Source: Cetobacterium sp. 8H (lineage in GTDB: Bacteria > Fusobacteriota > Fusobacteriia > Fusobacteriales > Fusobacteriaceae). Taken from it: a stretch of DNA of 64,000 bases. The notes under the pieces are model-generated. The model did no database searches. It worked only from the letters and a program-made list of their open reading frames with translations, and was not told where the DNA came from. The stretch lies in assembly GCF_014250675.1 (NCBI RefSeq), contig NZ_JACHTG010000004.1, positions 869,501 through 933,500 of the forward strand. The letters are read 5' to 3'. The position numbers and the translations under genes are program-made. Positions 9,296-12,128 of this stretch are shown here, one piece after another. The first letter of the stretch is position 1; each line of letters starts with the position of its first letter.

Positions 9296-10501
9296 ATGTA
9301 TAAAAATTTCTTAGATAATCATCGAAATGGGATTTTGATTTTAGATAAAGATTTTAAAGTTCACTACAGTAACAAAGCACTGCGGAAAATTTTTAAAAAA
9401 GATTCTCAAGAAAGGTGTGGGGAATTTTTAGAGTGTTTTTACCAAAATACTGAAAAACAGAGATGTTTAGAAACTTCTAGATGTAGCGGATGTGATATTA
9501 GAAGAAATATAAAAAAAGTTTTAGTTGGAGAATTAGAACAGATTTATATTGAAAATGTAATGTATGAAGCATTGCTTTTAGAAGAAAAAAAAGAAGTTTA
9601 TTTGAGTATGGAGATAAAAAGATTAATAGAAGAAAATAAAATATTTATAGCAATAGAATTCTTGAAAGTTAAAGTTAATGAAGAGATGGTAATTTCAGAT
9701 AAAAGAGTTATGCATGATATGTTAGATAATATGGGAGATTTTATTTTCTATAAAGATAGTGACTTGAGATATGTATATGCAAATAAATCTTTCTGCGATT
9801 TCATAGGGATAAAGAAAATAAATCTAATAGGCAAAAAAGATAGTGACTTTTTTCCAGAACAGATGAGCAAAAATTGGGAAAAAACAGATAAATATGTTTT
9901 AGAAAAAGGTAGTTATATGGAAGAAGAAAAAATAAATGGTAGATATTATAAAGTAAGTAAGGAAAAAATAAGAATAGATAAAGAAGATATATTAGCATGT
10001 GTGGTAAAAGATATAACCGATGAAAAAAATGAAATGAAAAAAGTTTATGTTGATAAGTTGACTGGAGTCGGAAATAGATATGGATACGATGAGGAGATTC
10101 GTAAACTTTTTCAAAAAAAAGATAAAAACTATGATTTAGCTCTTTTAGACTTAGATTATCTGAGAGATTTAAATAATAATTATGGACACTCTTTAGGAGA
10201 TAAGGTTTTAAAATATGTTGCTAAAACTATAAAAAAAGAGGGAATATCAAAAGTGTATAGAATAGGTGGAGATGAGTTCGCTATTCTTATAGAGGATGAT
10301 AAAGACTCTTTAGAGATTTGTAAAAAAATAAATGACAAAATAAAAGAATCATTGATAGATAATAAAAAAATTTCAACAAGTATAGGTGTAGTAAATTTGA
10401 AGTATAGCGAAAGTATTTTAGCAAACTTTAACTATGCTGACACCGCATTATACGAATCAAAGAAAAAAGGTAGAGGGACAGTAACAAAAGTAAAAAGATA
10501 G
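9296..10501 (+). CDS. PAS-PAS-GGDEF protein (probable diguanylate cyclase) with N-terminal cysteine cluster
   Basis: Probably makes cyclic di-GMP in response to a cytosolic signal. The 401-aa protein has no membrane segment. The first PAS-like domain (about 1-110) carries Cys41, 47, 57, 63 and 66, spaced C-x5-C-x9-C-x5-C-x2-C. A second PAS domain spans about 135-250 (DNMGDFIFYKDSDLRYVYANKSF). The GGDEF domain (about 255-401) has an intact GGDEF active-site motif near residue 324 and DKLTGVGNRYGYDEE at its start. The start is the ATG behind AAGGGGGAG; a longer frame would start in the upstream terminator. Confidence 0.88.
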   Translation: MYKNFLDNHRNGILILDKDFKVHYSNKALRKIFKKDSQERCGEFLECFYQNTEKQRCLETSRCSGCDIRRNIKKVLVGELEQIYIENVMYEALLLEEKKEVYLSMEIKRLIEENKIFIAIEFLKVKVNEEMVISDKRVMHDMLDNMGDFIFYKDSDLRYVYANKSFCDFIGIKKINLIGKKDSDFFPEQMSKNWEKTDKYVLEKGSYMEEEKINGRYYKVSKEKIRIDKEDILACVVKDITDEKNEMKKVYVDKLTGVGNRYGYDEEIRKLFQKKDKNYDLALLDLDYLRDLNNNYGHSLGDKVLKYVAKTIKKEGISKVYRIGGDEFAILIEDDKDSLEICKKINDKIKESLIDNKKISTSIGVVNLKYSESILANFNYADTALYESKKKGRGTVTKVKR

Positions 10502-10521
10502 AGATTTTTCTCTATCTTTTT
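10492..10521. terminator. bidirectional terminator between the GGDEF and AGCS genes
   Basis: A 13-bp perfect stem AAAAAGATAGAGA / TCTCTATCTTTTT with a TTTT loop and A/T runs on both flanks. It serves the convergent genes on both sides. Confidence 0.88.
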
Positions 10522-10522
10522 T

Positions 10523-11863
10523 TTAAATTTTTAATCTTATAAATTTTGATTCATAATCTTTTAGCGATTCAAAAGCAAATTTAGAAAGTGGAAAAACACC
10601 AGATAGATTAATTATTGTCATAAGTGCAAGACCTAAATCAGCCAAGTTCCACATAAATATATTTTGTTGAATTCCACCAATGAAAATCATAGATAGTGCA
10701 AAGAGCTTAAAAATTATTTGTCCAATCTCTTTGTCAGTTAAAAACTTAACATTAACTTTTCCGTAAAAACAAATTCCTAGTAAAGTAGAGAAACAGAAAA
10801 GGAATAAAATAATAGCAACAAAGATTTCACCAAAACTTGATCCTAAATGGTAGTTAAAAGATTTTTGTAAAAGTTCCATTCCATTTAAGTTTGCTATAAC
10901 CGATTCTTTCGTTAAAAGCATAACAAAAGCAGTGGCAGTACATATAACAAATGTATCTACAAATACACCTAAACTTTGAATAAGACCTTGTTGAACTGGG
11001 TGGACAACGTTAGCACTAGCTGCTGCACAAGGAGCACTTCCTGTTCCAGCTTCATTTGAGAATAGTCCCCTTTTAACACCTTGCATTATAATGCTTCCAA
11101 CAGCGCCACCAATTCCTTGTCTTAATCCAAATGCTTCAGAAAATATACGAGATAGAACATTAGGGATTAGGTTGAAATTTTTTATGATTATAAAGAAAAC
11201 AATAGCTAGGTATAAAAAGGCCATCAATGGAACTATTTTATCTAAAATTTTAGCTGTTTTATCTGTTTTTCCAAAAATTATAATTCCAGCCATTGAGGTA
11301 AGAATTCCAGACATAATAAATGGGTTTAATTTGAAAGCTACATTGAAAGATTCTGTAACAGAGTTAGAGACAACTTGTAAAACTCCAGCCCAACAGATTA
11401 TTCCAGTAACAACAAAGGCGATACCCCAACTTTTTTTACCTAAACCATTTTTTAAAAAAAAGCAAGGACCTCCAAAGAAATTACCATTTTTGTCACGTTC
11501 TCTAAAAAGGATAGCTAGTGTAGTCTCTATAAAAGCTGTGGCAGAACCTAAGAATGCGACAATCCACATCCAGAAGATAGAACCCGCTCCTCCAATAGAG
11601 ATTGCACTCACTACTCCCGCAAGATTTCCGGCGCCAACTCTGGTCGCGGTACTTATACAAAAGGCTTGGAATGGCGAAAGATTTTGATCATCACTATCAG
11701 ATTTTTCACATAAAAGAGCTATCATATGTTTGAAAAAACGAATCTGAACAAAATTTGTTTTAAAAGTAAAGAAAACTCCCGAAAAAATAAGCAGTACTAC
11801 AAGTAAATTTTTACCCCAAAGGATAGAGTTTAAAAAGTTAACAATAGTTTCTAAAAAATGCAT
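10523..11863 (-). CDS. AGCS family sodium:amino-acid symporter, candidate tyrosine transporter
   Basis: Sodium-coupled uptake of small amino acids in the inner membrane; characterised members carry alanine or glycine. The 446-aa protein has family signatures: QAFCISTATRVGAGNLAGV, IFWMWIVAFLGSATAFIETTLA, GGPCFFLKNGL and FSNEAGTGSAP. The start is the ATG 6 nt behind AGGAGG; the frame is open a further 37 codons upstream through the terminator, which is not a plausible N terminus. Upstream lies a leader with a Tyr5 peptide and an intrinsic terminator. Tyrosine is therefore a candidate substrate or signal; this is inference from regulation, not from the protein. Confidence 0.9.
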   Translation of the reverse strand: MHFLETIVNFLNSILWGKNLLVVLLIFSGVFFTFKTNFVQIRFFKHMIALLCEKSDSDDQNLSPFQAFCISTATRVGAGNLAGVVSAISIGGAGSIFWMWIVAFLGSATAFIETTLAILFRERDKNGNFFGGPCFFLKNGLGKKSWGIAFVVTGIICWAGVLQVVSNSVTESFNVAFKLNPFIMSGILTSMAGIIIFGKTDKTAKILDKIVPLMAFLYLAIVFFIIIKNFNLIPNVLSRIFSEAFGLRQGIGGAVGSIIMQGVKRGLFSNEAGTGSAPCAAASANVVHPVQQGLIQSLGVFVDTFVICTATAFVMLLTKESVIANLNGMELLQKSFNYHLGSSFGEIFVAIILFLFCFSTLLGICFYGKVNVKFLTDKEIGQIIFKLFALSMIFIGGIQQNIFMWNLADLGLALMTIINLSGVFPLSKFAFESLKDYESKFIRLKI

Positions 11864-11890
11864 AAAAGACCTCCTAAGATTAAATAAAAT

Positions 11891-11919
11891 AAAAAAAGCC
11901 TGTGGATTGACCACAGGCT
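11891..11919 (-). terminator. leader terminator (attenuator) before the AGCS symporter
   Basis: On the minus strand a 9-bp stem AGCCTGTGG / CCACAGGCT with loop TCAAT is followed by seven T. It ends 27 nt before the symporter ATG, downstream of the promoter and leader peptide, so it can only act as an attenuator of this gene. Confidence 0.88.
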
Positions 11920-11943
11920 GCAAATTAACAGTTCTATGTAACA

Positions 11944-12015
11944 AATCCATCTTACTAGTTATTACTGGTAACACAAAATGGATTCGTATTTTTTGAATGA
12001 AACAAAAATACCAAC
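11944..12015 (-). promoter_or_regulatory. alternative pairing segments in the AGCS leader
   Basis: In transcript order: GTTGGTA (12009-12015), AATCCAT (11978-11984), TACCAG (11965-11970) and ATGGATT (11944-11950). AATCCAT pairs with ATGGATT to form a hairpin that also closes an inner TTAC/GTAA stem. TTGGTA could instead pair with TACCAG and break that hairpin. The freed ATGGATT could then pair with AATCCA (11903-11908) in the terminator. The last helix is only 6 bp, so the exact switching is tentative. Confidence 0.5.
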
Positions 12016-12016
12016 C

Positions 12017-12073
12017 CTAGGTTAGATAATAATAGTAATATGAATTTATATTAAAAATTATTTTTTGCTCCAT
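12017..12073 (-). CDS. leader peptide with five consecutive tyrosine codons
   Basis: An 18-codon ORF, MEQKIIFNINSYYYYYLT, stops at TAG. It is preceded by a perfect AGGAGG 5 nt before the ATG and lies about 30 nt downstream of a promoter. Codons 12-16 are TAT TAC TAT TAT TAT (12026-12040). A strong ribosome-binding site, a run of one amino acid near the stop, alternative hairpins and a terminator before an amino-acid transporter gene are the layout of ribosome-mediated attenuation, as in trp or his leaders. Predicted role: ribosomes pause when charged tRNA-Tyr is scarce, the terminator is disrupted and the symporter is made. Confidence 0.85.
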   Translation of the reverse strand: MEQKIIFNINSYYYYYLT

Positions 12074-12100
12074 ATTTTCCTCCTGAAATTTATTTTATGT

Positions 12101-12128
12101 ATTATAACACAAAGAGAAAAAAATACAA
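12101..12128 (-). promoter_or_regulatory. promoter of the leader peptide and AGCS symporter
   Basis: On the minus strand TTGTAT (12123-12128) and TATAAT (12101-12106) have a 16-bp spacer. The -10 is 27 nt before the leader ATG. Confidence 0.75.

Follow-up and report, generated by a model that had tools for sequence, protein, structure and literature searches.

A putative tyrosine leader-peptide attenuator before an AGCS symporter gene of Cetobacterium and its re-coded relatives in Fusobacteriaceae

The leader and the symporter gene

The window, a stretch of 64,000 nucleotides from the 2.57 Mb genome of Cetobacterium sp. 8H, encodes on its minus strand an AGCS-family sodium:amino-acid symporter preceded by a short open reading frame with five consecutive tyrosine codons (Table 1). 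Curated models place the symporter in the family (PF01235/TIGR00835), one score being 433 bits against a cutoff of 273 and the other 449 bits against a cutoff of 24, and among solved structures the archaeal AgcS (6cse) is the closest to it. The gene starts at the conserved ATG at 11863; the mechanical ORF call runs on to a GTG at 11974. A strong bidirectional terminator of 13 bp lies at 10492-10521, between the AGCS gene and a convergent GGDEF-like gene.

The minus strand from 12128 to 11861 was read base by base, and all elements listed in the first-pass annotation, which had proposed a tyrosine leader-peptide attenuator, were found in place. Promoter elements TTGTAT and TG.TATAAT also lie 5' of the leader in same-genus orthologs. 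In the predicted switch of five segments, the first Tyr codon is 23 nt upstream of segment 2, which begins with the final base of the leader stop codon (UAG), and segment 3 overlaps the 5' arm of hairpin 3:4 (11987-11974). The terminator hairpin was also recovered by an independent terminator scan, and 27 nt separate the end of its T run (11891) from the symporter ATG. The leader RNA folds better than 200 of 200 dinucleotide shuffles (z -4.3), and five Tyr codons in a row would arise by chance in any one 18-codon ORF with a probability roughly estimated at 3e-6, assuming 4.5% Tyr. A U-rich stretch, UUUUGU, directly follows segment 3 (11979-11974) and is also present in Met and Trp relatives of the leader despite their different stem; it may be a polymerase pause site synchronising polymerase and ribosome.

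Table 1. Positions of the leader elements and symporter gene in the window, with the other attenuators of the same type in the host genome
Feature	Position	Strand	Sequence or basis
Promoter	12101-12128	minus	TTGTAT 12128-12123, 16-nt spacer, TG-T-TATAAT (TATAAT 12106-12101)
Leader Shine-Dalgarno AGGAGG	12079-12084	minus	Direct reading; all orthologous leaders have AGGAGG or GGAGG
Leader ORF MEQKIIFNINSYYYYYLT	12017-12073	minus	ATG 12073 to TAG 12019-12017, 18 codons
Tyr sensor, five consecutive codons	12026-12040	minus	TAT TAC TAT TAT TAT; (TAT/TAC)5 in all orthologs
Segment 2, 5' arm of hairpin 2:3	12004-12017	minus	Folding; family covariation
Segment 3, 3' arm of hairpin 2:3	11980-11993	minus	Folding; family covariation
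Segment 4 as 3' arm of hairpin 3:4 (termination-permitting form)	11941-11954	minus	Alternative-fold computation
Predicted antiterminator, 5' strand	11928-11949	minus	UGGAUU, CAUAG, CUGU; computed pairing
Predicted antiterminator, 3' strand, within terminator	11903-11921	minus	GCAG, CUGUG, AAUCCA; computed pairing
Intrinsic terminator	11897-11919	minus	AGCCTGTGG-TCAAT-CCACAGGCT; 9 bp, 6 G-C
Terminator T run, seven T	11891-11897	minus	Direct reading
Symporter Shine-Dalgarno AGGAGG	11870-11875	minus	Direct reading
AGCS-family sodium:amino-acid symporter, 446 aa	10523-11863	minus	PF01235; TIGR00835
Host Met-MetN attenuator	C5:35119		R2 model, E=2.6e-4
Host Pro-PutP attenuator	C4:297932		Weak in R2, E=0.44; RF04312, E=5e-4
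Host His-ABC binding protein attenuator	C4:1524433		RF04312 search and locus reading

Conservation and predicted switching of the leader

The Tyr leader and its hairpins are kept before 13 orthologous AGCS genes from several genera of Fusobacteriaceae, and this conservation argues most strongly against a chance arrangement. The orthologous leaders have a Shine-Dalgarno sequence, an ATG or GTG start, an N-terminal part that drifts, five Tyr codons and a stop, and their peptides range from MEQKIIFNINSYYYYYLT to MFRFRKINTTSYYYYYRT and MLKTIKINTTSLYYYYYL. The Tyr codons change only synonymously (TAT/TAC). Homologs of the leader without a Tyr run, or without a terminator, had been foreseen as counter-evidence to a tyrosine attenuator; all 13 keep both, and the proposal is in this respect supported by comparative genomics. 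A search of 61 genomes of the family for YYYYY-type ORFs, using a Shine-Dalgarno-start-(TAY)5 pattern, gave matches in 12, which were the AGCS leader in ten and unrelated in two (G070, and a low-complexity TAT repeat in G080), and reversed control patterns found nothing in the same 61 genomes.

Symporters with the Tyr leader form one clade (ultrafast bootstrap 86, SH-aLRT 80), and the whole element is absent from the sister pair of AGCS genes (L013, L016). One of these, L016, has a different terminator-like hairpin before the gene (GACTG...CAGTC followed by T8), possibly another kind of control. At three loci (L133, L134 and L135, in G014, G033 and G079) two Tyr attenuators stand in tandem before one AGCS gene, both of them complete with a Tyr run and a terminator, and G082 gives the same two model matches. 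A tandem arrangement could steepen the response.

An alignment of 11 leaders shows nearly invariant arms, GGRUU in segment 2, AAUCC in segment 3, GGAUU in segment 4 and AAUCC inside the terminator. RNAalifold predicts hairpin 2:3 with the terminator from this alignment, and alternative folds of the 11 homologs with segment 2 removed give 3:4 and the full terminator. Once 2:3 is formed, segment 4 is computed to pair with the 5' arm, the loop and half of the 3' arm of the terminator, with -12 to -15 kcal/mol in same-genus sequences; in more distant homologs different pairs do this job. Among 19 members of the wider family described below, helix 2:3 and the terminator have both-sided changes at 18 of 22 pairs, a result matched by none of 500 shuffles and one that leans towards the structure because the alignment was fitted to it. 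Slid controls collapse in the same test. The terminator keeps 9 of 9 pairs in the family alignment, with both-sided changes in seven.

Equilibrium folding of the RNA downstream of the ribosome predicts antiterminator pairing in the window of 0.73 with a ribosome stalled on the Tyr codons against 0.34 with a terminating ribosome, and none of 60 shuffles gave as large a difference. The means for 40 family leaders are 0.50 and 0.29 (shuffles 0.30 and 0.28), the predicted switch being clear in 21 leaders and in the wrong direction in four. In a separate test, the values obtained for segment-4/terminator complementarity are below the shuffle mean in all 40 (mean z -2.3). When a simulation allows the RNA to pair across the ribosome and the ribosome occupies the stop codon, P(3:4) is 0.99. 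Untranslated leader RNA is predicted to take the terminator form, and in full-length leader RNA the terminator is always the more stable form at equilibrium, so that read-through would rest on kinetics.

Leader-peptide attenuation is classical, and its usual ingredients are found here: a short ORF with Shine-Dalgarno sequence, start and stop, whose translation is indicated by 13 orthologous loci with synonymous Tyr codon changes; an antiterminator and a terminator that are mutually exclusive by computation; and a codon run which, judged by its conservation and by the scaffold-family matches, stands for an amino acid related to the gene, tyrosine being the putative substrate of the symporter. 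Together the leader and the exclusive hairpins very probably switch on an amino-acid importer when tyrosine is short, and we are confident, short of certainty, that ribosome-mediated transcription attenuation by tyrosine supply controls the AGCS gene and that the symporter most likely imports tyrosine. The first-pass reading is upheld with two corrections: the element belongs to a homologous scaffold that has been re-coded, and segment 4 acts as a specific antiterminator in the predicted switch.

We infer the following sequence of events. RNA polymerase would transcribe the leader peptide region with its five Tyr codons. When Tyr-tRNA is plentiful, the ribosome would reach the UAG that overlaps segment 2 and mask this segment, leaving segment 3 to pair with segment 4, and the terminator (5:6) would form and stop transcription before the AGCS gene. 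When Tyr-tRNA is scarce, the ribosome would stall at the start of the Tyr run, some 20 nt before segment 2, which would let 2:3 pair and free segment 4; the freed segment would then take up the terminator 5' arm, loop and half of the 3' arm and permit read-through into the symporter gene. In a leader that is not translated, the Tyr-codon stretch would pair with the segment-4 region and the terminator would still form, so the predicted default is off.

Leaders of the same scaffold with other codon runs

The covariance model R1, for which only Tyr-AGCS leaders were used, found the same layout in other genera before tyrS (leader ending in SSYYYCN), DAHP synthase (NWYFYYYFRN), trpS (SYWWC), homoserine dehydrogenase (MLMMMLW) and homocysteine synthase (LMLMMLW). 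A second model (R2), built from 19 diverse members, has matches in 44 of the 61 Fusobacteriaceae genomes at E<=0.1 and in 39 at E<=0.001, against none at E<=0.001 in 35 genomes from the remaining families of the order, used as an AT-rich negative control. Further loci have Met runs (metN, metG, aspartokinase), NNNNN (asnA), HHHHH (hisZ and family-3 binding proteins), WW or WCWC (SNF-family symporters), YYYYY (a second tyrS type) and PIPPR (putP). With downstream genes identified from NCBIfam and Pfam, the scaffold serves tyrS for Tyr, DAHP synthase-tyrA for Phe/Tyr, trpS, TrpX and an SNF-family transporter for Trp, metN, metY, hom, lysC and metG for Met, hisZ and an ABC binding protein for His, asnA for Asn and putP for Pro. 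Codon run and gene show no mismatch wherever the specificity of the gene is known (three loci, L219, L238 and L242, are unassigned). In four genomes (G024, G035, G077, G014) the DAHP synthase gene with the Phe/Tyr leader is closely followed by a gene for prephenate dehydrogenase. Judged by these homologies, the window element is a member of a scaffold that Fusobacteriaceae have in re-coded versions for no fewer than seven amino acids. In the host genome we found four such attenuators, the Tyr-AGCS leader of the window and the three others in Table 1.

Enterobacterial his, trp and pheA attenuators consist of a short ORF with a regulatory codon run, exclusive hairpins and an intrinsic terminator. 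The window leader has all of these in common with them, and its chain of alternating pairs is also seen in the his leader, whereas its run is Tyr-only, its target is a transporter and its host belongs to a different phylum. We know of no common sequence scaffold among the enterobacterial leaders, while in Fusobacteriaceae one scaffold is re-coded for many amino acids. Bacilli have a His leader common to hisZ and a hisS paralog (Naville and Gautheret 2010, PMC2965389); there too a codon-run leader and homologous attenuators precede different genes, but for one amino acid only, and in Firmicutes. Our search of the open-access literature found no tyrosine leader before an AGCS gene and no leader attenuators in Fusobacteria, and the re-coded switches appear to be a previously unrecognised family.

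Leader-peptide attenuators would on this evidence be a re-codable homologous module, comparable to T-boxes, rather than devices of separate origin in each operon, and Fusobacteriaceae would possess a readable amino-acid-sensing system where T-boxes are absent or rare. As the codon run shows what a transporter or operon responds to, the substrates of uncharacterised transporters should be predictable from a few codons, among them the AGCS protein of the window, SNF-family symporters and ABC binding proteins. What is likely to surprise specialists is that a re-codable scaffold is found family-wide and that it is linked to the trpB motif, as set out below.

Symporter substrate, the trpB motif and other readings

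Prephenate dehydrogenase (PF02153) has no match in the host genome and no match over the cut-off in any Cetobacterium-group genome, and no T-box was found in 12 genomes of the genus. With neither found, tyrosine import appears the most economical role for the symporter. It is probably a tyrosine importer in an organism apparently unable to make tyrosine, a substrate well motivated by the leader codons, the missing prephenate dehydrogenase and the agreement of run and gene in the family. No pocket residue diagnostic of tyrosine was identified in the symporter sequence, and the GxGN motif of helix 1, considered as a guide to the substrate, is uninformative because it is common to paralogs that have no Tyr leader.

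That shared motif also leaves room for a real attenuator in which tyrosine is only the cue and the symporter carries another amino acid, such as Ala, Gly, Gln or another aromatic one. The characterised AGCS proteins carry Ala/Gly or Gln (PMC12795558; 6cse AgcS), and GutA (Cj0903), an AGCS glutamine transporter, shows that substrates in the family extend beyond Ala/Gly; the part of that report available to us mentions no leader peptide (PMC12795558). An amino acid also acts at the RNA level on a gene of AGCS type in Streptococcus pyogenes, where a sodium:alanine symporter gene is reportedly preceded by a glycine riboswitch, with a glycine aptamer and no leader peptide (PMC5829553). We nevertheless regard another substrate as unlikely, if clearly the most serious alternative, as the codon run fits the gene wherever specificity is known in the leader family, the AGCS leader is Tyr-only where the DAHP synthase leader mixes Phe, Tyr and Trp, the symporters with the leader are a single clade, and the host has no prephenate dehydrogenase.

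No Rfam family reached its gathering score in the window leader or in 22 related loci. The best structural match below threshold is the trpB motif (RF04312), which scores 25.5 bits in the window against a gathering score of 59, up to 52 bits in relatives, and the gathering score in no Fusobacteriaceae genome searched. A full-length cmscan alignment places its P1 on hairpin 3:4 and its P2 on the terminator, in agreement with the hairpin layout of the leader. RF04312 (SRC-39-1) was published as a strong candidate for an orphan riboswitch, with over 900 representatives in Firmicutes and Fusobacteria and an antiterminator in the right shoulder of P1, its authors allowing that it might instead be a classic attenuator (Narunsky et al. 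2024, PMC11109978). The two elements have in common a hairpin (3:4) with the antiterminator in its right shoulder followed by a terminator, and an occurrence in Fusobacteria before amino-acid transporters; RF04312 is also found in Firmicutes, and its model begins downstream of the leader ORF.

Matches to RF04312 below the gathering score occur in 39 of the 61 Fusobacteriaceae genomes and coincide with R2 at 12 or more loci, among which are the host putP leader and, in G014, the tandem Tyr-AGCS leader. When 26 further RF04312 loci were read, all but three followed a short ORF with a Shine-Dalgarno sequence and regulatory codons, namely His runs where the gene is hisZ or encodes a binding protein, Pro codons for putP and Trp codons for TrpX. 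This argues for leader-peptide control of the RF04312 loci in Fusobacteriaceae. For Firmicutes the same control is a hypothesis; four Bacillota genomes gave no RF04312 match over the cut-off.

If the published interpretation were carried over to the window, the leader RNA would be a metabolite riboswitch and its short ORF incidental. Resemblance of the hairpin-plus-terminator half to RF04312 speaks for this, as does the ranking of that motif by its authors (PMC11109978), but each kind of gene has its own run (His, Trp, Tyr, Met, Asn, Pro) and the hairpin-terminator half remains similar throughout, which is the opposite of what a single-ligand aptamer would show. The Shine-Dalgarno sequence, start and run are also kept while the N-terminal codons drift, and the stop codon abuts segment 2. 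A riboswitch is thus very improbable here. We lean, by a narrow margin over doubt, towards a broader proposal, in which a re-codable Fusobacteriaceae scaffold operates on at least 12 gene types and at least seven amino acids, RF04312 is the switching half of a device of this kind and no ligand-binding riboswitch, and the AGCS symporter is the first tyrosine-specific member of its family. This would offer a testable mechanism for an orphan riboswitch candidate.

Attenuation might also depend on binding of tyrosine by an arrest peptide inside the ribosome tunnel and not on tRNA shortage, and TnaC-type leader peptides provide a precedent. Only the homopolymer run is kept in the present leaders, the remaining peptide drifts even among AGCS orthologs, and the identity of the run changes with the gene, which makes such arrest a scarcely plausible explanation. 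Direct sensing of uncharged tRNA-Tyr by a T-box, the form of control that acts on tyrosine genes in Firmicutes and of which a conserved AGGRUUGGU near the stop codon is faintly reminiscent (the UGGN bulge), can practically be set aside, as RF00230 is unmatched in the window and in 12 of 12 genus genomes, stem I is absent and the Tyr codons lie in a translated frame.

Several matches were discarded. Weak R1 matches in the host (L170-L173, L175) have no leader ORF and lie within or at the ends of genes; R2 matches L224, L235, L237, L240 and L247 likewise lack a leader ORF and were judged false positives, and L236 is doubtful. The RF04312 matches L270 and L274 are terminators behind a rubredoxin-like gene and were judged false positives, as was L271. 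Sub-threshold matches to OmrA-B and GlmZ score on little more than the terminator or have many broken pairs, and antisense matches on the leader arise from its palindromes.

Other loci carry leaders of unusual composition. The Phe/Trp/Tyr-rich leader MSLRKVRAMFWFMYYFKTKVYI (L242, G009:C1:312196-312351, minus strand), with hairpins and terminator, precedes a gene for a GldA-like iron-containing alcohol dehydrogenase. An Ile run is found in MFRLTITTTIIIM (L219, G024:C2:755701-755870), and MKLINTFTLNNSPIMP (L238, G014:C4:242082-242279) is, like it, followed by a terminator. Two leaders before the gene for the tryptophan binding protein TrpX (L260, ending in KYWQSH, and L268, with NSWQSHWI) carry the motif WQSH in place of a run, and their Trp codons number only one or two.
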